Below are positions 16,818-33,946 of a stretch of 39,418 nucleotides of DNA, piece by piece (position 1 is the stretch's first letter; the number at the start of each line of letters is the position of its first letter). The notes below the pieces were generated by a model, which was not told where the DNA came from, did not search any database, and saw nothing but the letters and a program-made list of their open reading frames with translations. Source of the DNA: a virus; IMG/VR virus record IMGVR_UViG_3300027763_000111, positions 1-39,418 of that record; one strand, 5' to 3'. A program made the translations under genes and the position numbers.

Positions 16818-18039
16818 AATCCTTCTTAAAATGTGATAATGTGTAAGACTTCTTATCCATCACCGATTTGTAAATCTTTTTCTCTATTCCCTTTGTGCTA
16901 AATATCCAGTAAATCTTGTTGAACTTACGATCCATTGTAGTCATACGATCACGCCCCTGCCAGTAACTTGTAGCACTGAAGTCAATATTGTAGAACACTA
17001 AAAACTCTGCATTCTGTAAACTTATTCCCTCACGCCCAGATATGATCTGCAAGGCTATTGACTTATCTGTTGAGTTGAACTCATCTAGATCATTTGTCAA
17101 GTTCTCGACACCAAATACTTGACGTAAAGCCTCTAGTTCAGCGATAAATTTGTAGAATATCCCAATCTTAACTCCCTTGAAACGCTCTCGTATAAACTCT
17201 GCCTTGCTTAGATCAATAACCATTGAATTACCAGACTCAAACTTAACTGTTCCGCTATACATCTGGTGCAACTTCTGCTGTAGCTTGACCGAAGTATCTG
17301 CCAGTATAACCTCATCCTTACCTTGTATAACCAAGTCTTTTATCAGTTTATCGCACATACTGTAGGTAGATGGTTTCATTTCAACATACAGGCATTCTTC
17401 CTCTATAACTGACTCAAATCCAGCCTGTTCTTGTGTGTATGTTACATTGTATGGATCAGTGATAGGTCTTATCTTGTCTATGTATGCATTCTTATAGCAG
17501 GCTGTTGGTCCGTGACTCGTGTACTTTATCCCAGGAATAACGAAGTCCTTAGCCCACTTGTAAAAGTTAGCATACTTACTAAATGGAGAGTATGCTGAAA
17601 CCCAGTACTGGTGATATATCTGACTATACCCCTCTGGAGTAGGCGTTCCTGATAGGAAGATCATTGGCAGGTGTCCAAACATTTTCTTAAACGTCTTTGT
17701 TGCCTTTCCTGGCTTAGGCTCTGCTCCAAACCTGTGATGCTCGTCATGTATAACTAAGTCATAACTAGCTGTGAGCTTATGCATTGACTCGTCATTCATC
17801 ACCTGCATAGAGAAGTGCTTAGCATATCCAAACTCGCTATAGTCAGACTTGATAGAGTTCATTGCGATCTTCTTGGTGAGGAATAAAACATTCTTGGCTC
17901 CGTATAACCTTGCGATCTCCATTGAGGTAGCTGTCTTACCAGTTCTAACGCTCATACAAAGATAAACAATTTTCTTATCTTTAAGAATTTCTACGCCTTT
18001 ATTTGCGTTATTTATTTGGTAGTCTCTTAGTATCTTCAT
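16804..18039 (-). CDS. Superfamily 2 (SNF2-type) DNA helicase
   Basis: 411 residues. Motif I is VRTGKT (G34-K35-T36), motif II is DEHH (99-102), motif III is SGTPTP (130-135), and the C-terminal lobe has SGREGISLQ and QGRDR (361-365) for motifs V and VI. This is the compact SNF2/DEAD-like ATPase form common in phage replication modules. It lies between nuclease and primase genes and probably remodels replication forks or recombination intermediates. It begins with an ATG 32 bases inside the previous gene's end. The role in replication is inferred from context. Confidence 0.88.
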   Translation of the reverse strand: MKILRDYQINNANKGVEILKDKKIVYLCMSVRTGKTATSMEIARLYGAKNVLFLTKKIAMNSIKSDYSEFGYAKHFSMQVMNDESMHKLTASYDLVIHDEHHRFGAEPKPGKATKTFKKMFGHLPMIFLSGTPTPEGYSQIYHQYWVSAYSPFSKYANFYKWAKDFVIPGIKYTSHGPTACYKNAYIDKIRPITDPYNVTYTQEQAGFESVIEEECLYVEMKPSTYSMCDKLIKDLVIQGKDEVILADTSVKLQQKLHQMYSGTVKFESGNSMVIDLSKAEFIRERFKGVKIGIFYKFIAELEALRQVFGVENLTNDLDEFNSTDKSIALQIISGREGISLQNAEFLVFYNIDFSATSYWQGRDRMTTMDRKFNKIYWIFSTKGIEKKIYKSVMDKKSYTLSHFKKDYDIT

Positions 18040-18801: not shown

Positions 18802-21216
18802 TTAAAATTTAAATTCATCATTAATTTCTTCCTCTTCTTCCTTAATACTCGTGTCCTTAAACTTGATCCATCTGCCAGTGTTGTTACGTCCTTCTAAAGG
18901 AGTAACTCCAGTAACAAATAAACCATACGATACTAACCACTTGTAAAATATAGTCCGTGATATTGTCATCTTAGCCTTCGGTGCAAAGTCTGGATTGTCT
19001 TGGATAAAGTCAAGATATAAATCTTGCTTGTACAGTATCTCTCCCAACGTAATCGTAGGCTTATCATCCATCAGCCCAACCCACTCAATAAACTCGTGGC
19101 AAGTATCTGCCGATAACTTACGGATCTTAAGATTAACAAACTCACTCTTGACTAAACCTGTTGTTAGGTATGCCTGTAAACTCTTGATCATATAGTTATC
19201 GAACTTGCACCACTCGTTGTCATCCCACTCAGTAAACAATAACCTACCAAACTCTACCAACGGAGTAAACTCTTTGGTATAGAACTGCTTGAACTCAAGC
19301 TCCCACTTACGTCTCTCGAATGAGTTACCCTTACCCTTGATGGCGTAGTTTGTTGTGATAATAATCTTAGGAGACTTCGCAAATGGAATATGCATTGCAT
19401 CCTTATTCTTTCTCTCCAAGGTTATACCCTCTGTAATCACACTGAACAACCTCTCGAAGTTGAAGTGCTTCTTAACATCATCAAACGCAAGTATCTGGGT
19501 ATCAACTGACACGGTCTGGTATGGGAACGAACTATCGAAGTTCACGCTCTTACCATCGATAAAGGCTAACTTCTTCATCTGAGATATTGCATTGGTAAAT
19601 AACCCCTTACCAGTCCCGCCCTCTGGGTTATCTGTGATTACCTCATCATTTAGAATGACCGCAGGACAGTAAGATAAATTCTTATATCCGTGCATAAGGA
19701 ATCCAATCGTGCTCTCAAGAGAGTCAATGCGAGTCTGTTCATCGTTTGATACGTTTGATATAAATGTCTTGAAGTCACAGTCTGTGATCTCACAAATGTT
19801 AAAGTCTCTATCGATCACCTGGTCTGCCCATATATAACCACCAAGATCGATATAGTCAATGATGTCGATGCTGTCCTTGTCTATGCGAACAGCACAATTC
19901 TTGTAATAAAGGTACGCATTGTCCTTGTCATCCTCCATAAAATATACATCAACAGAAGATAATAGAGATAGAAAGTCCTCCTTAAAGAACCTAGTCTTGT
20001 CTGCAAAGTAGTTGTAAACTGATAAGTCATCGATTGTTTGTAAATGGTTTAGTATAAAGTCTTTGATCTCGTCCTCTGACGTATGGTCGATGAGGTTGTT
20101 GGTTACTCTTACAAAGATGTAACTCTTGCCACCATTTGGCATGTACTTGAAGAATCCGTTGTCCTCCAGGAACTCTCTGAATAGGTAGTGAATGATGCTT
20201 ATGGCTCCCTTGTCTGACTTGCTCCAGTACTTCTGACTTGCCTCGTCTCTGTCGATTGTATCGATCACATCGTCAATTGCATTCTCCGATATGTTCAAAC
20301 CCATTAGCTCAGACTTGATCTCTTTCTTGGAAATTCCACGCTTGATCTTCTGTCGAACCTGAGTCAACTTGTCATCATCTTCATAAAACTTTGTACCGAA
20401 CTTCTGAGTCTGTCTGTATGCTGAGTCGATAATGGTTCTGATCTCTTGCATTGGAAAGTCCTGACTGTCGAACTGCCCCATAACATACTCTGCCAACGAC
20501 TTGCTTACTCCGTAGTCATTGAATGCTGAGGCTAGTATGAATACATTATTGTTACGCTCACCATCAACAAGTCCGTACTTCCTAGTCCACCACTTCATAA
20601 GTATCTCGATTATCTTATTCTCGTTGGTTATAGGAATGGTTGGTTTAGATGTTACCTTATCCATCTCAATATACTCGTGCTCTGACAGTGTGTTCCATAG
20701 CTCGCTTGAGGTGTTCACATATATCTCTGGATCGTATGACTCGTAGCATACCCTTGAGATATTCTTTGAGGTCTTATCGAAGTACTTAGAGTTGAAGTGT
20801 TTCTCTAATGAGTTGAAGTAGTTCTTATGGTTCTCAATATCCCTAGGTATCTTTACGATCACCTTGAGTCCGTTCCCAGACGGTGAAACAAACACAGAAT
20901 AGGTATACTTATTCTTTGAAATTACAGCCTTATCAGCCTTCATTTCTTTCTCTGTAGCATAACCATCAAAGTCTAGGCAAATGAACCCTGAGTGCTCTAA
21001 AATAGCCTTATCCTCACGCTTAGTGAACTTACCTGAGAAGCACACCGCAGGTAGTTGTTGCTTTAGTATATTACGAGTGGACTTGTCCTTCTCGTTTCTG
21101 ATACCTTCAACGATGTCTTTAGAGGCACCGTTCTGGATCCTATCAAGCATCACACCAATTGTCTTGAAGAATGGTGTTGATGTTGACTTGATGTCTCTGA
21201 AAATCGTTACTTCCAT
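18802..21216 (-). CDS. Primase-polymerase / superfamily 3 helicase replication protein
   Basis: 804 residues. The N-terminal 1-190 matches the VirE-N/BT4734-type primase-polymerase domain: LDFDG with metal-binding D82 and D84, then SPSGNGLK (112-118). Residues about 190-300 contain a PriCT-like helical region. The C-terminal half is a D5-like superfamily 3 helicase with Walker A GGTGKG (533-538) and Walker B FDD (D579-D580), ending in a winged-helix-like part and an acidic tail. It would synthesise primers and unwind DNA for phage replication. The gene looks richer in G+C by eye than its small neighbours. It starts with ATG 10 bases inside the upstream ATPase gene. Confidence 0.92.
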   Translation of the reverse strand: MEVTIFRDIKSTSTPFFKTIGVMLDRIQNGASKDIVEGIRNEKDKSTRNILKQQLPAVCFSGKFTKREDKAILEHSGFICLDFDGYATEKEMKADKAVISKNKYTYSVFVSPSGNGLKVIVKIPRDIENHKNYFNSLEKHFNSKYFDKTSKNISRVCYESYDPEIYVNTSSELWNTLSEHEYIEMDKVTSKPTIPITNENKIIEILMKWWTRKYGLVDGERNNNVFILASAFNDYGVSKSLAEYVMGQFDSQDFPMQEIRTIIDSAYRQTQKFGTKFYEDDDKLTQVRQKIKRGISKKEIKSELMGLNISENAIDDVIDTIDRDEASQKYWSKSDKGAISIIHYLFREFLEDNGFFKYMPNGGKSYIFVRVTNNLIDHTSEDEIKDFILNHLQTIDDLSVYNYFADKTRFFKEDFLSLLSSVDVYFMEDDKDNAYLYYKNCAVRIDKDSIDIIDYIDLGGYIWADQVIDRDFNICEITDCDFKTFISNVSNDEQTRIDSLESTIGFLMHGYKNLSYCPAVILNDEVITDNPEGGTGKGLFTNAISQMKKLAFIDGKSVNFDSSFPYQTVSVDTQILAFDDVKKHFNFERLFSVITEGITLERKNKDAMHIPFAKSPKIIITTNYAIKGKGNSFERRKWELEFKQFYTKEFTPLVEFGRLLFTEWDDNEWCKFDNYMIKSLQAYLTTGLVKSEFVNLKIRKLSADTCHEFIEWVGLMDDKPTITLGEILYKQDLYLDFIQDNPDFAPKAKMTISRTIFYKWLVSYGLFVTGVTPLEGRNNTGRWIKFKDTSIKEEEEEINDEFKF

Positions 21217-22045: not shown

Positions 22046-22123
22046 TAACAGAGGTAGGATTCGAACCTACATATCACGGCATATCTTTCAATACCGCGTG
22101 CCTCTCCACTCAGCCACTCTGTT
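22046..22123 (-). tRNA. tRNA-like gene with abnormal anticodon arm (possibly Ser)
   Basis: The acceptor stem AACAGAG/CTCTGTT, the D-arm (GCTGAGTGG...GGC, Ser-like) and the T-arm GTAGG-TTCGAAT-CCTAC are clear. Between them 29 bases form an 8-bp stem, CGCGGTAT with ATGCCGTG, closing an 8-base loop TGAAAGAT. A normal arm has 5 bp and 7 bases. Because of this the anticodon is not certain: TGA (Ser) is suggested by the D-arm and loop, but the usual U33 position does not fit. CCA is not encoded. Confidence 0.7.
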
Positions 22124-22138
22124 TAAGCATGTTATTCG

Positions 22139-22204
22139 GAGAGATGCTATCTCTCAGACATATAAAAGGCAATTCTTTATTTAACCTCTCGAGTGGTGTT
22201 GCCT
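22139..22204 (-). other. Structured linker between the two tRNA-like genes
   Basis: The spacer holds a 7-bp hairpin (GAGAGAT/ATCTCTC, 22139-22155) and a longer-range stem (AGGCAA 22167-22172 with TTGCCT 22199-22204). These may guide RNase cutting of a joint tRNA-mRNA transcript, or be remnants of another RNA gene. No tRNA or protein is visible here. Confidence 0.4.
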
Positions 22205-22217
22205 AACGCTGCTTATT

Positions 22218-22288
22218 GCGCTACGGCAGGAATCGAACCTGCGTCCTTAAGTAAAAGGCTCAAGATAATACCACTATACCACGTAGCT
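22218..22288 (-). tRNA. tRNA-like gene, probable tRNA-Lys (UUU), atypical
   Basis: GCTACG/CGTAGC forms the acceptor, with a first-pair A-G mismatch. The D-arm (GTATAGTGGTATTAT) and T-arm GCAGG-TTCGATT-CCTGC are good. The anticodon stem TTGAG/CTTAA closes the loop CCTTTTA, placing TTT at 34-36 but giving C33 and T37 instead of the usual U33 and purine 37; shifting by one restores these but breaks the stem. CCA is not encoded. Confidence 0.7.
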
Positions 22289-25818: not shown

Positions 25819-25996
25819 GTATTAATCTTCTTGCTTCTGCATCAGATTTTGTTGCTCTTAATTTTTGTAGAAATTCTGACTTGCCTATCTGTTCTTGTTG
25901 CCATTTAGCACCTGCTATAAATATTTCTTTTATAGTCCATTTATCTGGCTGTGGCGTAAATCTTTCAGCAAATTCTTCAATTGTTTCTTCTTTCAT
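25796..25996 (-). CDS. Small paralogous protein B (AERF...KWQQE...EQFKNK type)
   Basis: 66 residues, MKEETIEEFAERFTPQPDKW then IFIAGAKWQQEQIGKSEFLQ and ending LEQFKNK. The N-terminal EE.AERF, the GAKWQQEQ core and the identical tail match paralog A. It is coupled to the upstream gene by ATGA. Function is unknown. Confidence 0.72.
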   Translation of the reverse strand: MKEETIEEFAERFTPQPDKWTIKEIFIAGAKWQQEQIGKSEFLQKLRATKSDAEARRLILEQFKNK

Positions 25997-26259
25997 ACTA
26001 GCTGTACTGTTAGTTTGTCGTCGTCCTGCTCTATCTCGTATCTTCCGCAGAAGTCGTCATCCATAACTATCGTGAACTTAAAAGCTCCGTTGTTAGGTGT
26101 AGCCTTTCTGATACGAGCCCTCGTGTCTACCGTAGGTCTCGTGAACTCTATCTTATTCCATTTTACCTTCATGACAAACTCTTCCTTGAAGAAGTTGTCT
26201 CGTGTATGCAGATCAAACTGCCTGCCTGTAAACCCTCTTTTGTAAATTGATATTTTCAT
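25993..26259 (-). CDS. Phage protein of unknown function, 88 residues
   Basis: Three ATGs are possible: 26280, 26259 and 26172. I use 26259 (MKISIYKRGFTGRQF), which still overlaps the upstream gene by 47 bases; 26172 (MKVKWNKIEF) would avoid the overlap and keep the conserved-looking beta-rich core RPTVDTRARIRKATPNNGAF and DDDKLTVQLV. The true start is therefore open. There is no known domain. Confidence 0.6.
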   Translation of the reverse strand: MKISIYKRGFTGRQFDLHTRDNFFKEEFVMKVKWNKIEFTRPTVDTRARIRKATPNNGAFKFTIVMDDDFCGRYEIEQDDDKLTVQLV

Positions 26260-26536
26260 ACTGTTGTTGTTTAATTTCATTTTCTTTTAATTTTTGGAAC
26301 CGCCATTCTGCAAACATTGGTTCCTTTACCTTATCTACCAACCTAAAATACTTCGGTTGGTTTACAATCTCTTCCAACAGTACGCCTACGGCACCAAAGT
26401 CGTGATGCTCTACCGCTCGTATTGTGTATATGTTGTCCTGCTGTACCCAATTTGGTACGTCTACTGCCAATTCGTCTGCCGTGTGTGGTTGTTTACTTGC
26501 GTCAACACATACCACTCTGTCTCCTATGCTAAACAT
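26213..26536 (-). CDS. Small beta-barrel-like phage protein, 107 residues
   Basis: Begins MFSIGDRVVCVDASKQPHTA and continues YTIRAVEHHDFGAVGVLLEEI...YFRLVDK, the pattern of a small SH3-like barrel protein frequent in phages (GDRVVCVD ... Y.IR ... FRL). The C-terminal helix (AEWRFQKLKENEIKQQQ) is charged. The family is recurrent, but its role is not known to me. Confidence 0.75.
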   Translation of the reverse strand: MFSIGDRVVCVDASKQPHTADELAVDVPNWVQQDNIYTIRAVEHHDFGAVGVLLEEIVNQPKYFRLVDKVKEPMFAEWRFQKLKENEIKQQQYENINLQKRVYRQAV

Positions 26537-26766
26537 AGGTTCTTAAGTTCTTTCTTACTCATATCCAACAACTTAGTCAAGGCACCGTCCGTTGTGTCAT
26601 TGGTATCCAGTATCTTAAACAATACCTCTACCTTGCGATGTGTTAATGACCTGCCAGAGGCGAACTGCTTGACTCTGTTTAGTCTGTCCGTGAAGTCCTG
26701 ATGTTGTTGTGGTGTTGTTATTTTATCTCCGTGTTGGGTTTCCCAACGTCCATTTATTACTCTCAT
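26524..26766 (-). CDS. Small protein of unknown function, 80 residues
   Basis: Begins MRVINGRWETQHGDKITTPQ. Two helical parts (HQDFTDRLNRVKQFASGRS and ALTKLLDMSKKELKNLCLA) could form a small helix-turn-helix-like bundle, but no clear DNA-binding signature is present. It overlaps the barrel gene by 13 bases. Confidence 0.68.
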   Translation of the reverse strand: MRVINGRWETQHGDKITTPQQHQDFTDRLNRVKQFASGRSLTHRKVEVLFKILDTNDTTDGALTKLLDMSKKELKNLCLA

Positions 26767-26984
26767 ATTATTATTTTTATAAAGTTGTTGTTTTTATCGT
26801 ACAATCCTGTAAGTTCAAATTTATTATCAATATGTACCAAAATGTTGTCAAGCGGAACCTGATTGAATATTATTCCAAACGTGTTGATGTCGATGCTATC
26901 CTTACTGTTCTCCAGGTAGTATTTGTAGAACCAATTTAGATTATACTGCTTACTGTTGCGCATCTTAATATATTCTGCTCTCAT
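26763..26984 (-). CDS. Small protein of unknown function, 73 residues
   Basis: Begins MRAEYIKMRNSKQYNLNWFY, rich in Asn, Ile, Tyr and Asp, alternating helix and strand (IIFNQVPLDNILVHIDNKFELTGLYD). It is coupled to the next gene by ATGA and overlaps the previous one by 20 bases. No motif is recognised. Confidence 0.65.
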   Translation of the reverse strand: MRAEYIKMRNSKQYNLNWFYKYYLENSKDSIDINTFGIIFNQVPLDNILVHIDNKFELTGLYDKNNNFIKIII

Positions 26985-27147
26985 ATATCTTATTTTTTTG
27001 GTTGTACGTAAGTTTGTACCATGATTGCTGTAGTTCCATTGTTATATCATCTGTGCCGTATATTTTTTGTAATAAACGGTAAGGCAAATCCTGGTACCAA
27101 TGATCCAATGTCTGTTCCATGTGTGTTGTATGTTCGTTAAATCTCAT
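26965..27147 (-). CDS. Small protein of unknown function, 60 residues
   Basis: Begins MRFNEHTTHMEQTLDHWYQD and contains YRLLQKIYGTDDITMELQQSWYKLTYNQKNKIY, a helical, Trp- and Tyr-rich sequence. It overlaps both neighbours. A short domain with W...L...QK.KIY spacing is seen in other small phage proteins, without known function. Confidence 0.65.
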   Translation of the reverse strand: MRFNEHTTHMEQTLDHWYQDLPYRLLQKIYGTDDITMELQQSWYKLTYNQKNKIYESRIY

Positions 27148-27325
27148 CGTTTAAAAATTTATAGTATTCATTATACAAGTCGTTAAAAATATGTCTGTAA
27201 TAATCTTTATACCTCAGGTCTCCGTTGTCGTCCGTTGTGTAAAGGTCTAGCTCGTTGTCTACCATGAGGCGCAAGTCTTTATGCGCCAATTCCGATGCTT
27301 TTTCTATTGTGCACATAATCCCCAT
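27137..27325 (-). CDS. Small acidic helical protein, 62 residues
   Basis: Begins MGIMCTIEKASELAHKDLRL; the second ATG (residue 4) is an alternative start. The C-terminal part YKDYYRHIFNDLYNEYYKFL is a strongly aromatic helix. It overlaps the upstream gene by 22 bases and the downstream one by 11. Function is unknown. Confidence 0.65.
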   Translation of the reverse strand: MGIMCTIEKASELAHKDLRLMVDNELDLYTTDDNGDLRYKDYYRHIFNDLYNEYYKFLNDEI

Positions 27326-27594
27326 GGTTCTATCTTGTTAATATTTCTTCCGTTTAGTCCTAATCTTTGACAGATAAACTTCGCCAATACCTTGTTACCT
27401 CGTGTGCCGTTGTCAATCTCACGTGTGCCTATTCTGAACACTACCTCTGACGGCTCCATTCCTAAGACTCTGTTACAGAATTTTGAATCTTGTCCTAGGT
27501 ATAGCCTATTGTGTTTTGTTTTTGTACTTACTAATAACGTCCACTCGTGACCAAATCCGTAACTACCTCTGTTAACTTCTATTGTTGCCTTCAT
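27304..27594 (-). CDS. Beta-rich small protein, 96 residues
   Basis: Begins MKATIEVNRGSYGFGHEWTL and continues VSTKTKHNRLYLGQDSKFCNRVLGMEPSEVVFRIGTREI. The alternating hydrophobic and polar pattern suggests a beta sandwich with a C-terminal helix (KVLAKFICQRLGL). There is no catalytic motif. It is coupled to the upstream gene by ATGA. Confidence 0.68.
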   Translation of the reverse strand: MKATIEVNRGSYGFGHEWTLLVSTKTKHNRLYLGQDSKFCNRVLGMEPSEVVFRIGTREIDNGTRGNKVLAKFICQRLGLNGRNINKIEPWGLCAQ

Positions 27595-27908
27595 ATAAAG
27601 TATTTGTTGTTAAATTTTTGTTTTTGTCCTGCAAAGTTTGGGCTGTAAACCAACATATCAAACTCATCACTACTTATAGCAATACACTGTTGAGTCATTA
27701 CAGAGCATATCTTTTCAAAGTCGGCTATTATCTTAGAAGTAAGTTTATAGTCCGTTGACAGTCCTAAAACTGCCGTTGGTTCGTCTACTCCGTTGTACTC
27801 TCCGTTCTCGATTTTAAAGGTTACTACTTTGTAGCCTACGTGCTCCATGAAGTATTTGTAAATATTCTCCACTGCATTGTTGTTTAGTCCTATGTTTACT
27901 GTTATCAT
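27591..27908 (-). CDS. Small protein of unknown function, 105 residues
   Basis: Begins MITVNIGLNNNAVENIYKYF. The first part looks alpha/beta (VGYKVVTFKIENGEYNGVDEPTAVLGL), the second carries IIADFEKICSVMTQQCIAIS, and it ends in a basic, Asn-rich stretch. It is coupled by ATGA at both ends. No family is recognised. Confidence 0.68.
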   Translation of the reverse strand: MITVNIGLNNNAVENIYKYFMEHVGYKVVTFKIENGEYNGVDEPTAVLGLSTDYKLTSKIIADFEKICSVMTQQCIAISSDEFDMLVYSPNFAGQKQKFNNKYFI

Positions 27909-28117
27909 TTTGTGTTAAGATTTTCGTTTGTTGCTACTAAGTTAATTGTCTCGTTAATGTACTCAATCACTGTAGGGCTAGTCATAGACCAATACAATAT
28001 ATTTTGAGCCGTTTCTTCGTCGCACTCGAAGTTGTCCTGCACGTCATTCACGTGCCATAAATTTTCTACGAAGTAACCGTTGTTTTTAAGTACTTCTTTT
28101 GCTTGTGTTACTGTCAT
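27905..28117 (-). CDS. Conserved small phage protein, 70 residues
   Basis: Begins MTVTQAKEVLKNNGYFVENL then WHVNDVQDNFECDEETAQNILYWSM. The NLWHV.DV...F.CDEETA pattern is one I recognise as recurring in short Bacteroidetes phage and prophage proteins, with no described function. It is helical and acidic, and coupled on both sides by ATGA. Confidence 0.75.
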   Translation of the reverse strand: MTVTQAKEVLKNNGYFVENLWHVNDVQDNFECDEETAQNILYWSMTSPTVIEYINETINLVATNENLNTK

Positions 28118-28410
28118 AATGTTTTATATAAAGTTTTTAATTGTTGGATAATGCTCGAATAAGCCTCTATTTCGGCTTGTTTTTCTTTGGTTAGTCTCTT
28201 AATACCACTTTGTGTTTTTATGCTCTTAATCTCGTTGTCTATAGCCTTAGCGACTGCCTGACGCTTTGAAGACTGAAACGGATATACTTCCCATGTGCGG
28301 TTTATGTAGTTACATTTAGCCGTTGCTATTAAAATTCCATTGTCATTGTATAGTTCCGACGTGTGACTAAAACCTGACCTGCTACTGTTGTAAGTGTTTT
28401 TAAATTCCAT
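28114..28410 (-). CDS. Small protein of unknown function, 98 residues
   Basis: The ATG at 28410 (MEFKNTYNSSRSGFSHTSEL) is preferred to a TTG at 28443, giving an 11-base overlap with the upstream gene. The first half is beta-rich (YNDNGILIATAKCNYINRTWEVYPFQSS), the second a long helix. This strand-then-helix plan is common among small phage proteins. No function is known. Confidence 0.7.
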   Translation of the reverse strand: MEFKNTYNSSRSGFSHTSELYNDNGILIATAKCNYINRTWEVYPFQSSKRQAVAKAIDNEIKSIKTQSGIKRLTKEKQAEIEAYSSIIQQLKTLYKTL

Positions 28411-28639
28411 AATTATTAAGTTGTTGTTTGTTACATTTGTCAAATCCGTAATATTCTAAGAAGGCGTTGATATGCCTTGCTGTAGTTGCACTGTACCAAC
28501 CGTTAACGGTCATTACATTTGTATCGTGGTTGTAGTTCGCCACTTCCGTGTTGTAACTAACTAATCTAGTTATGTTGTTAACTGTTTCCATTTTGGCTTT
28601 GCCGTAGAAAATATTTTGCATTAGTTGTAAATTTGTCAT
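28400..28639 (-). CDS. Conserved small phage protein, 79 residues
   Basis: The ATG at 28639 (MTNLQLMQNIFYGKAKMETV) is chosen over a GTG at 28675, because it overlaps the preceding TAA as TAATG. The middle SYNTEVANYNHDTNVMTVNGWYSATTARHINAFLEYYGF matches a widespread small phage family (VA.......V.GWYS.TT.RHIN.FL...G). Its role is unknown. Confidence 0.78.
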   Translation of the reverse strand: MTNLQLMQNIFYGKAKMETVNNITRLVSYNTEVANYNHDTNVMTVNGWYSATTARHINAFLEYYGFDKCNKQQLNNYGI

Positions 28640-28749
28640 TATTTCCTTAGTGTTATTATGCCTGCTATTATGCACGCGATTATTACTATACTCGATGTAG
28701 ATAGCACGCCTATGGTGCCGATTGCTAGTTGTAAGATTGATTTTTTCAT
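28639..28749 (-). CDS. Very small membrane protein, 36 residues
   Basis: The frame MKKSILQLAIGTIGVLSTSS continues IVIIACIIAGIITLRK: two positive residues, then one long hydrophobic span and a basic end, as in a membrane anchor or toxin-like peptide. Its TAA overlaps the next ATG by one base and its ATG overlaps the preceding TAA, giving TAATG at both ends. This double coupling strongly supports coding. Confidence 0.72.
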   Translation of the reverse strand: MKKSILQLAIGTIGVLSTSSIVIIACIIAGIITLRK

Positions 28750-29087: not shown

Positions 29088-29195
29088 TTAGTTAAATTTT
29101 TCGTTTAAATATGCTATTAATAATGCACCTGCAAATAATGCAAAGTATACCGTGCATATTAATACTAAAAAATCATGGTCAGATATTGTACTCAT
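29088..29195 (-). CDS. Very small membrane protein, first gene after the ribozyme (35 residues)
   Basis: The frame MSTISDHDFLVLICTVYFAL continues FAGALLIAYLNEKFN: an acidic N-terminus and one membrane span of about 21 residues. Its ATG follows the last base of the hammerhead core by 12 bases. It is the first gene of the main early run. Small membrane proteins at the head of early operons often act on the host, but no function is shown here. Confidence 0.68.
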   Translation of the reverse strand: MSTISDHDFLVLICTVYFALFAGALLIAYLNEKFN

Positions 29196-29207
29196 AATAT
29201 ATGTTGT

Positions 29208-29265
29208 TACGTTTCGCCATTCCGTGGCTCATCAGTACGGACTGTTGTTATCCGTATACGTACAC
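29208..29265 (-). ncRNA. Type III hammerhead ribozyme in the early-operon leader
   Basis: Read on the - strand: helix III 3' arm TACGT (29262-29258), H17 = A (29257), helix I TACGG (29256-29252) with CCGTA (29240-29236) and an 11-base loop, core CTGATGA (29235-29229), helix II GCCA/TGGC (29228-29225, 29219-29216) with loop CGGAA, core GAA (29215-29213), and helix III 5' arm ACGTA (29212-29208). Every conserved core base of the hammerhead is present, including G10.1-C11.1 and A15.1-U16.1. Cleavage is predicted between 29257 and 29256 after a GUA triplet, separating the 45-residue leader frame from the operon mRNA. Confidence 0.93.
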
Positions 29266-29318
29266 GTCTATTCCTATTTAGATAGCTCGTGGTCTTCGGT
29301 TTCAACTCCAGAGTAGAC

Positions 29319-29456
29319 TTACCCTATTTTATCCTGTTTTATCAGTCCGCCACTTTTTAAATATGTGGTCTCTATTTCATTATGGTACAAATTAAATACT
29401 TTTATTTGATACCTGCAAACTTTTAACAAAACTTTAACATTTGATATATTCTTCAT
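29319..29456 (-). CDS. Leader protein of 45 residues downstream of the early promoter
   Basis: The ATG at 29456 gives MKNISNVKVLLKVCRYQIKV and a total of 45 residues, basic and mixed. A longer frame from 29519 would cover the promoter and is rejected. The start is about 15 bases after the expected start of transcription from P1. The second repeated promoter lies inside this frame, so part of the coding sequence is shaped by promoter duplication; it may be a leader peptide or not translated at all. Confidence 0.45.
   Translation of the reverse strand: MKNISNVKVLLKVCRYQIKVFNLYHNEIETTYLKSGGLIKQDKIG
29388..29438 (-). promoter_or_regulatory. Second (duplicated) early promoter copy, P2
   Basis: Within the second 36-base repeat, TTTG is followed by 20 bases and TTAATTTG (29395-29388), one mismatch from TAnnTTTG. 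The spacing is identical to P1. It lies inside the 45-residue frame and would start just upstream of the ribozyme. Confidence 0.55.
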
Positions 29457-29528
29457 CGTTTGTTTGTTTTGACAGTACAAACATACGGCAGGTATTTGGT
29501 TCCCGCAAATAATTAACATAACTTTAAC
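29403..29528 (-). repeat. Two 36-base imperfect direct repeats carrying promoter -33 boxes
   Basis: Copies at 29493-29528 and 29403-29438 share 28 of 36 bases (ends AACTTTAAC, TTAACA and TATTTG conserved), start 90 bases apart, and each carries the TTTG of a promoter. They may be a duplicated control element and repeated protein-binding sites. Confidence 0.75.
29478..29509 (-). promoter_or_regulatory. Main early promoter P1, TTTG-N20-TATGTTTG
   Basis: On the - strand a TTTG box is followed by 20 bases and TATGTTTG (29485-29478), an excellent Bacteroidetes-type promoter. It points into the 45-residue leader frame, the hammerhead ribozyme and the main leftward operon. Confidence 0.8.
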
Positions 29529-29900
29529 ACTTTATTTTTAGAAACCCTTTGTTTACTTAACTAGTATGTATTGCATAGTAGCGCAATTAATAACGTTTAA
29601 CAGTTAATATCTTATACAAGTCAATAGAATAGGGGCTTTATCGTTTTAATGTACTATATATATAGATGATATTTTGAAATTTGAAATAAGGCAGGGGCTA
29701 TGACACACGTAAGTATGTCTAAAATCGATTTTAAGGTACATTTGCGCCACGATAATAAACCAATACATACACTAGCATTAAAAGTTCGAGTTTTTGCCTT
29801 AGAATCAAAATACCAATAAATAAAGCACCTGCAGAGACCAATAAAACAACAATACACCGTTAACCCTTACCACCATTGACTGCGACGTTTTTTTAGACCA

Positions 29901-30263
29901 ACCTGGTAGTAACTTTGTAGCATTGGTGCGGGTTCTTTAAATTCAGTGTCATTTACTACCAGGTAGTGCGACGTTTTTAAAAAAGTTTGTCATGGTCTTA
30001 AGTCTTGATACCAAAGGGCTAAGAAGGATTTTATCATTTCATTCTGATTTTTTTTATGATTATGAAAAAAAAAAAAGAATAGTTGTCTTAGTACATTTAT
30101 TAAGGCTGTAGTACCTATATTTTACTATAAAACCTCAATAATCGACGCAGATACTGTAAACATTGATACTCACAAAAACAACATCGTCACAAAACCTGGT
30201 AGTGGATTTTAACTTCTTAGTGTTTATAGGCTTTTAACCTGGTAGTAAATCTGTCATGGTAGT
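29901..30263. repeat. ACCTGGTAGT repeat cluster (iteron- or operator-like)
   Basis: ACCTGGTAGT occurs at 29901-29910, 30194-30203 and 30237-30246. A palindromic variant ACTACCAGGTAGT is at 29955-29967 and a shorter ATGGTAGT at 30256-30263. Flanking words TGCGACGTTTTT (29881 and 29967) and TGTCATGGT (29989 and 30252) are also repeated. Confidence 0.75.
30041..30080. repeat. A/T-rich inverted repeat
   Basis: ATTCTGATTTTTTTT and a run of 12 A followed by GAAT form inverted arms around a short ATGATTATG centre. It could be an easily melted element of an origin or a weak terminator for either strand. Confidence 0.5.
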
Positions 30264-32350: not shown

Positions 32351-33946
32351 ATGAGTTACAGTCCAAAGGATTTAGTCTTCGATACAGAAGGAAGAGATAA
32401 GTTAATTAATGGTATTACTACTATTGCCAAGGCGGTTAAGAGTACACTCGGACCACGAGGTAAGACTGTCTTGATTGAATCACCAGAACATACACACGGA
32501 ATTACAGTAACAAAAGATGGAGTTACTGTAGCAAAGTCTATCTACTTGATTGATCCAGTAGAGAACCTTGCGGTTAAGATGATGAAGGAGGCGGCAGATC
32601 GTACAGCTACGAGTGCTGGTGACGGAACCACTACAGCGATTGTACTTACAGAGGCTATTGTTAAGCAAGGTCAGGAGATTTTGAATGAGAAGCATAACAT
32701 CACAGAGGTTATTAGACATATTAACGATGTGACTGATAAGTTAGTTGTTAGTTTGGAGAAGAGGTCTAAGAAGGTTAGCGGTAAGACATTGAAGAACGTA
32801 GCATCAATATCTGCAAATAATGATTCTGAGCTTGGTGGTATTATTGCAGATACTTATGAGAAGGTAGGTAAGGATGGTATTGTTACCATTGAGGATTCTC
32901 AGACTGCAGAGACATACACACAGGTAACCAATGGTATTAAGATCGATAGAGGTTATACATCGAATATGTTCATCAACAACCATAAGAAGGATGAGTGCAT
33001 TATGGATGATGTGCTGGTACTTGTTACAGACCAGGAGATAAGTAATATCTTATCAATCGAGAAGGTGTTGAAGCCAGTGATTCAGCAGCAGAAGAAGTTG
33101 TTGATTATTGGTACGTGTAGTCAGAATGTTATTAACACACTGGCTGCCAACGTAGTACAGAACAACCTTAAGATATGTAATATTATACCTCCTCAGTTTG
33201 GTTACAAGAGGAATGAGTTGATGGGAGATATTGCACTGGCTGTTGGAGCAAAGTATTTCTCAGAGAGTACTGGAGATGACTTGAGCTTGATAGGTATTGA
33301 AGACTTGGGTAGAGCAGACAAGATCATTGTTGGTAGAGATAGTACGGTGATTGTTAGATCAGAGGTAGCGAGTGATGAGATCAACGAGAGAGTAGCTCAG
33401 TTATGGGATAGTTATAACTTGTCTGACCGTAAGGGAGATAAGGACTTTATCAAGCAGCGTATTGCGAGTTTGACAGGAGGTATTGGTGTTATTTACGTAG
33501 GTGGTAACTCAGACCTTGAGCAGAAGGAACGTAAGGATAGGGTTGATGATGCTGTGTGTGCTGTTAGGTCAGCATTGGAGGAGGGTATATTGCCAGGTGG
33601 AGGACTAGCCTTGTTTAGTGAGTCTTACACGATCATTGCCAATGCAGATGATACGATTGATGATATTAGTGCCAACGAGTATGCAGCGATGCATATTATA
33701 GCAAGGGCGATACAGGCACCATTGCTACAGATCATGACCAATGCTGGGTTGGATGGTTATGAGGTGATGGAGGTTCCGTTTGGTAAGGATCAGGGATATG
33801 ATGTTAAGAATGAGGTGTATGGAGATATGTTCAAGATGGGAGTAATTGATCCTCTGAAGGTAACGAAGAACGCACTGAAGAATGCGGTGAGTGTAGCCAC
33901 GACAATACTGAGTACTAACGCGATTATAACAATGACACGAGCGTAA
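32351..33946 (+). CDS. groEL: Chaperonin GroEL (phage-encoded)
   Basis: 531 residues covering all three chaperonin domains. Diagnostic residues are present: TKDGVTVAK (D56), SAGDGTTTA (D91), and VDDAVCAVRSALEEGILPGGG near 399-418 (D400, equivalent to D398 of E. coli). The flexible C-terminal GGM repeat of bacterial GroEL is missing; the end is ITMTRA. It would fold phage proteins inside a ring closed by the co-chaperonin. The co-chaperonin follows by one base, the reverse of the usual bacterial groES-groEL order. G+C looks higher than neighbours, consistent with gain by transfer. Confidence 0.95.
   Translation: MSYSPKDLVFDTEGRDKLINGITTIAKAVKSTLGPRGKTVLIESPEHTHGITVTKDGVTVAKSIYLIDPVENLAVKMMKEAADRTATSAGDGTTTAIVLTEAIVKQGQEILNEKHNITEVIRHINDVTDKLVVSLEKRSKKVSGKTLKNVASISANNDSELGGIIADTYEKVGKDGIVTIEDSQTAETYTQVTNGIKIDRGYTSNMFINNHKKDECIMDDVLVLVTDQEISNILSIEKVLKPVIQQQKKLLIIGTCSQNVINTLAANVVQNNLKICNIIPPQFGYKRNELMGDIALAVGAKYFSESTGDDLSLIGIEDLGRADKIIVGRDSTVIVRSEVASDEINERVAQLWDSYNLSDRKGDKDFIKQRIASLTGGIGVIYVGGNSDLEQKERKDRVDDAVCAVRSALEEGILPGGGLALFSESYTIIANADDTIDDISANEYAAMHIIARAIQAPLLQIMTNAGLDGYEVMEVPFGKDQGYDVKNEVYGDMFKMGVIDPLKVTKNALKNAVSVATTILSTNAIITMTRA

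Follow-up and report, generated by a model that had tools for sequence, protein, structure and literature searches.

The early transcript of the virus studied here probably processes itself: a type III hammerhead ribozyme ahead of the first early gene would release a structured leader RNA and leave the early mRNA. The ribozyme belongs to a regular arrangement in related viral loci, in which type III hammerheads head operons after a long noncoding stretch and type I hammerheads overlap the upstream stop codon. The window (the whole stretch of DNA that was analysed, 39,418 bases) is the complete virus record, and its early region on the minus strand contains, in the direction of transcription, the following features.

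29478..29509, minus strand: distal early promoter, TTTG-N20-TATGTTTG, found by inspection, in the duplicated 43-nt repeat unit
29388..29419, minus strand: proximal early promoter, TTTG-N20-TTAATTTG, found by inspection, motif and surrounding bases identical in the relative G033
29263..29372, minus strand: structured noncoding leader RNA with helices P1-P6, from covariation and a covariance model, no Rfam match
29208..29262, minus strand: type III hammerhead ribozyme, from an RF00008 match, the minimum free energy fold and compensatory changes in relatives
29088..29195, minus strand: first early ORF, 35 aa, read by eye, its ATG 12 nt past the ribozyme
25993..28675, minus strand: downstream early operon made up of small ORFs, most of which overlap (phrog_4264, phrog_11722 and unknowns, from the ORF list and PHROGs)

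An earlier note, made from the letters alone, had placed a complete type III hammerhead at 29208-29265; the left end stands, but the motif proper stops at 29262. The core was found where the note had put it, with CTGATGA at 29235-29229 and GAA at 29215-29213, and so were helix III (TACGT 29262-29258 with ACGTA 29212-29208; 5 bp), helix I (TACGG 29256-29252 with CCGTA 29240-29236; 5 bp) and helix II (GCCA 29228-29225 with TGGC 29219-29216; 4 bp). All bases that define a hammerhead core are present (C3 U4 G5 A6 N7 G8 A9, G12 A13 A14, the pair A15.1-U16.1 and an H17 that is not G), and helices I and II are closed by loops with helix III open, as in type III. H17 is the A at 29257, which with U16.1 gives an accepted cleavage triplet, though others are commoner, and the cut proposed between 29257 and 29256 is right as a prediction.

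The covariance-model check proposed in that note gave a match. In a permissive search of 29100-29400, RF00008 was the single match of all 4227 Rfam families, at full length and 35.2 bits (E 3.8e-6 for all Rfam over 301 bases; E 1.2e-7 for the single model over the whole record). Neither the window nor any relative searched reaches the Rfam gathering score of 48.5, which is a curation threshold and not a structural criterion. The minimum free energy fold of the isolated segment is exactly the hammerhead, with an ordinary energy (z -0.92). Because the bare core CTGATGA..GAAA is expected by chance about 0.9 times per window, the core alone is insufficient, and the case is built on the complete structure and its conservation. 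Compared with RF00008 (Hammerhead_3), the window ribozyme has the same core, helix order and open helix III, but a short helix III, a GUA cut site and a CRGAA loop II. No second hammerhead was found in the window, including the downstream operon at 25993..28675, by an RF00163 search and by a strict scanner, which finds one.

No near DNA match exists among cultured phages by megablast against phage records, while a distant similarity search led to related Flavobacterium elemo phages. The window and elemoA_7-9A have a common replication gene type (primase/helicase, ERF/Sak annealing protein, exonuclease) and a GroEL gene; the GroEL-like chaperonin of the window is at 32351-33946 on the plus strand (phrog_5725, E 3.4e-136). 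Two phage tRNA genes at 22046-22288 (minus strand) are the sole Rfam matches of the window at the curated cut-off. Through the window's 804-aa primase-like protein (phrog_28855), 56 related viral loci were collected; for the 91-aa early protein, no viral relatives were found.

When the complete records of 48 relatives were searched with RF00008, 16 had a match with E no higher than 1, and in eight E was under 1e-5; direct inspection of relatives found further copies and several ribozymes per operon. In relatives gathered without selection on loop or stem sequence, helix I varies with pairing kept and the core is constant. Helix II occurs as GCCA/UGGC, GCUA/UAGC, GUCA/UGAC, GUCG/CGAC, GAGG/CCUC and GUCC/GGAC, while 11 of the 12 type III ribozymes from the first search of relatives retain CRGAA as loop II. 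The position just before the first early gene is also kept in related phages. From sequence and predicted structure, we regard the hammerhead of the window as confirmed.

The placement of this ribozyme in the leader of a minus-strand phage early operon is likewise supported. The duplicated promoters described earlier are two 43-nt copies, 79% identical and 90 nt apart, and both motifs are of Bacteroidetes type, the proximal one read as a sigma-A type promoter. Transcription would start at about 29382, from the proximal promoter. The spacing of 12 nt between ribozyme and start codon is correct, with the first ATG at 29195-29193, and the 35-aa ORF that begins there has a single hydrophobic stretch and is predicted to be a membrane peptide. 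In the wider set, TANNTTTG is found 85-260 nt upstream of the type III ribozyme in 26 of 60 cases, compared with 9.5% at random. Farther upstream in the window, the noncoding stretch 29900-30254 between divergent operons carries direct and inverted AACCTGGTAGTAA repeats, possibly operator or origin iterons.

The leader comprises about 110-120 nt directly upstream of the ribozyme, with about 110 nt of conservation in relatives. In the earlier note the ribozyme was thought to separate a short leader frame from the operon, which was not borne out: the stretch is a structured noncoding RNA with compensatory changes, and past the proximal promoter there is a single ATG, whose frame reads MK*. A 66-aa frame at 29319-29519 begins inside the promoter and overlaps promoter and leader, and we do not believe that it is coding.

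Eight leader sequences fit a structure of 27 pairs in which 94.9% of cells are paired, with both-side changes at 15 pairs; none of 500 shuffles was as good, and sliding by 1-3 columns left 30-39% paired. A covariance model built from the eight matched 32 loci with 26 distinct sequences, in which, with the alignment fitted to the model, 95.0% of pairs hold and both-side changes occur at 21 of 23. The hairpin GGGU/ACUC is invariant in the eight sequences; since helix P3 is formed by the loop of this hairpin, there may be a pseudoknot, though this is unproven. Neither the window leader (E up to 10) nor the relatives' leaders tested matched Rfam. Judged by covariation, the leader represents a previously undescribed structured RNA family, absent from Rfam.

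Leader and ribozyme occur together. Among 43 whole records, the leader is present in 11, all with a type III ribozyme, and in 0 of the 32 others. Scans with the leader sequence only returned six contigs with a type III hammerhead next in 6 of 6; five were previously known for their type III ribozyme, and one (L300) is new, with the ribozyme directly after the leader. In every member examined a type III hammerhead adjoins the leader. Other phages carry different leader classes ahead of their type III ribozyme, and for three such groups RNAalifold energies are far under those of column-shuffled controls, each from few sequences. In L064, L068 and L062, a second conserved stretch, CCGAGTATTGTAAGTTATTATT..GGCGTTACGC..AAGCAGTATGCCGAGATAGAC, lies upstream of the leader, perhaps another structured RNA.

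The relative G033, whose primase is 95% identical, has retained the early promoter region, with identity at 321 of 434 aligned columns, and its proximal promoter core is identical letter for letter to that of the window. G033 lacks the hammerhead, and an unrelated leader occupies the stretch between the approximate start site and the first ATG. The promoter without leader or ribozyme indicates that the two behave as one exchangeable module, which is dispensable. The G033 leader (L294:9575-9800) is itself structured-looking; it has no Rfam match, and a search for other ribozymes in it found none.

To place the window among other viruses, we scanned 2.68 Mb, consisting of the relatives and of viral contigs from two pattern scans (for the second, those among the matches listed). 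With three stems required, the strict scanner found 256 hammerheads among the matches listed (182 type I, 65 type III and 9 type II) and 0 in the same 2.68 Mb reversed. Since the loci were picked by hammerhead patterns, 256 is no frequency estimate, while positions and order are unselected. Among the matches listed, 241 of 256 have the ATG of an ORF of 30 aa or more no farther than 60 nt downstream; on the antisense side this holds for 35 of 256, and at random positions for 32%. By type, the matches listed give 64 of 65 for type III (median 13 nt) and 171 of 182 for type I (median 16 nt). The gap to the stop of the upstream ORF differs, with a median of -3 nt for type I and 376 nt for type III (p 1e-21; among the matches listed); in the window, the 66-aa frame made this gap look like 56 nt. 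In mixed arrays, type III comes first in 32 of 33 among the matches listed, where 13.5 are expected. Gap and order together indicate that a type III hammerhead signals the head of an operon, and a type I or II hammerhead a junction between genes. Among 84,980 prokaryote species the type I pattern was found in only 3 MAG contigs, so this form is mainly viral.

The same arrangement exists in cultured phages. For example, in elemoA_7-9A the first early gene (CDS 18854-19069) begins 13-14 nt past a type III hammerhead at 19083-19139; a second copy (L293:17341) before CDS 17013-17267 is type I-like with one helix III mismatch and fails the strict scanner. The leader has a match in 68 Flavobacterium BAL314 phage records. 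In the T7-like Pelagibacter phage HTVC031P, a type III hammerhead at 314 precedes gp02, a type II at 1351 precedes gp05, a type III at 41004 lies at the genome end (upstream of gp01, should the ends be joined), and a looser copy, type I-like with an unusual helix II, fails the strict scanner and precedes gp08 (L290:2076). All four are early and precede the RNA polymerase gene (2796); the late genes have none. Pelagiphages HTVC019P and Eistla have similar hammerheads.

Based on these observations, we propose that the early transcript begins at the duplicated promoters with the leader RNA first and the type III hammerhead next. The hammerhead would fold on leaving the polymerase and cut after A29257. 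The freed leader RNA would retain only 5-6 nt of the ribozyme and end in a 2',3'-cyclic phosphate, and the early mRNA would be left with a 5'-OH and the two ribozyme hairpins ahead of its first start codon; the mRNA end foreseen in the earlier note is thus supported, given the predicted cut. In related phages, type I hammerheads over upstream stop codons would cut the same operon further, giving the downstream message a short clean leader and the upstream message a folded 3' ribozyme. Type III keeps the ribozyme on the downstream RNA and type I keeps it on the upstream RNA, so each topology fits its place.

As to what the first cut is for, release of the leader may be the point. We suggest, tentatively, that the leader RNA is itself a product, an early noncoding RNA with its own role (e.g. 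regulating in trans, or acting on the RNA polymerase of the host), and that the hammerhead makes its 3' end, so that one transcript yields both this RNA and the early mRNA. The arrangement recurs with several different leader classes, among phages of two or more bacterial phyla. Alternatively, the cut may condition the mRNA, since a 5'-OH end protected by hairpins would resist 5'-phosphate-dependent decay, and the leader would then be a by-product or a promoter-proximal spacer. The type III topology keeps both hairpins on the mRNA, the cut falls just before the first ATG, and the same ribozyme type is preceded by different leader classes, all of which would suit conditioning; on the other hand, the leader structure is conserved more strongly than a by-product needs, and the downstream messages of type I ribozymes get unstructured 5' ends. 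We therefore hold conditioning, too, as a tentative reading.

It is improbable that the leader is an allosteric switch, which would sense something, turn the hammerhead on or off and so control the early genes. The leader does adjoin the ribozyme, and when the window's leader and ribozyme are folded together by nearest-neighbour rules, a rival structure with helices I and III open is favoured; an 8-nt leader stretch can pair with helix I there. However, the relatives inspected do not show this pairing, leader classes are very unlike one another, and across 56 loci shuffled leaders interfere equally on average (helix III 0.20 vs 0.21 shuffled). We rejected the switch on this last result, which also makes the rival fold weak evidence against cleavage, and we gave it little weight. 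A degenerate or inactive remnant without function is very unlikely: a score under the gathering cut-off and the missing ribozyme in the close relative G033 could suggest one, but the core is intact, stem changes in relatives are compensatory, and 256 cases, among the matches listed, hold a fixed position. Least probable, and rejected as the window has one ribozyme only, is the release and circularisation of RNA by paired ribozymes, as in a retrozyme- or viroid-like element; several relatives do have two or more hammerheads a few hundred nt apart, but the intervals are protein genes with their own ATG, the type order differs, and earlier prophage work, in its accessible part, found no circular products (PMC3088659).

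Hammerheads in such places have precedents, and the earlier note overstated their rarity, because clustered prophage hammerheads and a halovirus leader hammerhead were reported in 2011 (PMC3088659). According to Perreault et al. 2011 (PMC3088659), prophage clusters include types I-III, several flanking single phage genes; three tandem arrays cut in vitro, one also in E. coli, and the authors proposed that long transcripts are processed to gene-length mRNAs. The same paper describes HHphage of haloviruses HF1/HF2, which precedes the start codon of a helicase gene in the early region by 13 nt (PMC3088659). These findings, the prophage clusters, the processing proposal and the halovirus spacing, were already known. 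With one hammerhead, the window is unlike the clusters of at least two per operon, while relatives (G003, G004, G005, G007, G011 and elemoA) have at least two flanking genes in one operon. As far as the accessible part of that paper goes, the clusters show no fixed type order, no structured leader RNA before the first ribozyme and no type I-on-stop rule, and include no lytic Flavobacterium or Pelagibacter phages (PMC3088659). HHphage shares the place before the start codon, but has a 2-nt core insertion and an archaeal virus as its carrier, with no leader RNA described in that part (PMC3088659). We found no papers on hammerheads in pelagiphages or Flavobacterium phages in a search that covered few subscription journals. 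To our knowledge, what is new is that type III comes first, that type I overlaps stop codons, that a structured RNA forms the leader, and that cultured lytic systems have such ribozymes.

RNase III processing of T7 early mRNA has a comparable outcome: the early polycistronic transcript is cut between genes and in the leader by this host protein. Unlike T7, these phages, T7-like pelagiphages included, carry cis-acting ribozymes. The put RNAs of HK022 are structured RNAs right after an early promoter and are not known to be followed by a ribozyme; their resemblance to the window leader is a functional analogy only, with no sequence relation seen.

A 2017 review treats the role of prokaryotic hammerheads as an open question (PMC6155905). 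The regularity of the arrangement described here allows the expected RNA ends to be predicted, and cultured phages with laboratory hosts (Flavobacterium sp. BAL314 and Candidatus Pelagibacter) make the role of phage ribozymes testable, with ribozyme-dead mutants or natural device-free variants for comparison. A further gain is a structured RNA family that Rfam lacks, and the findings raise the idea that in phages ribozymes may take the place of processing by host RNase III.
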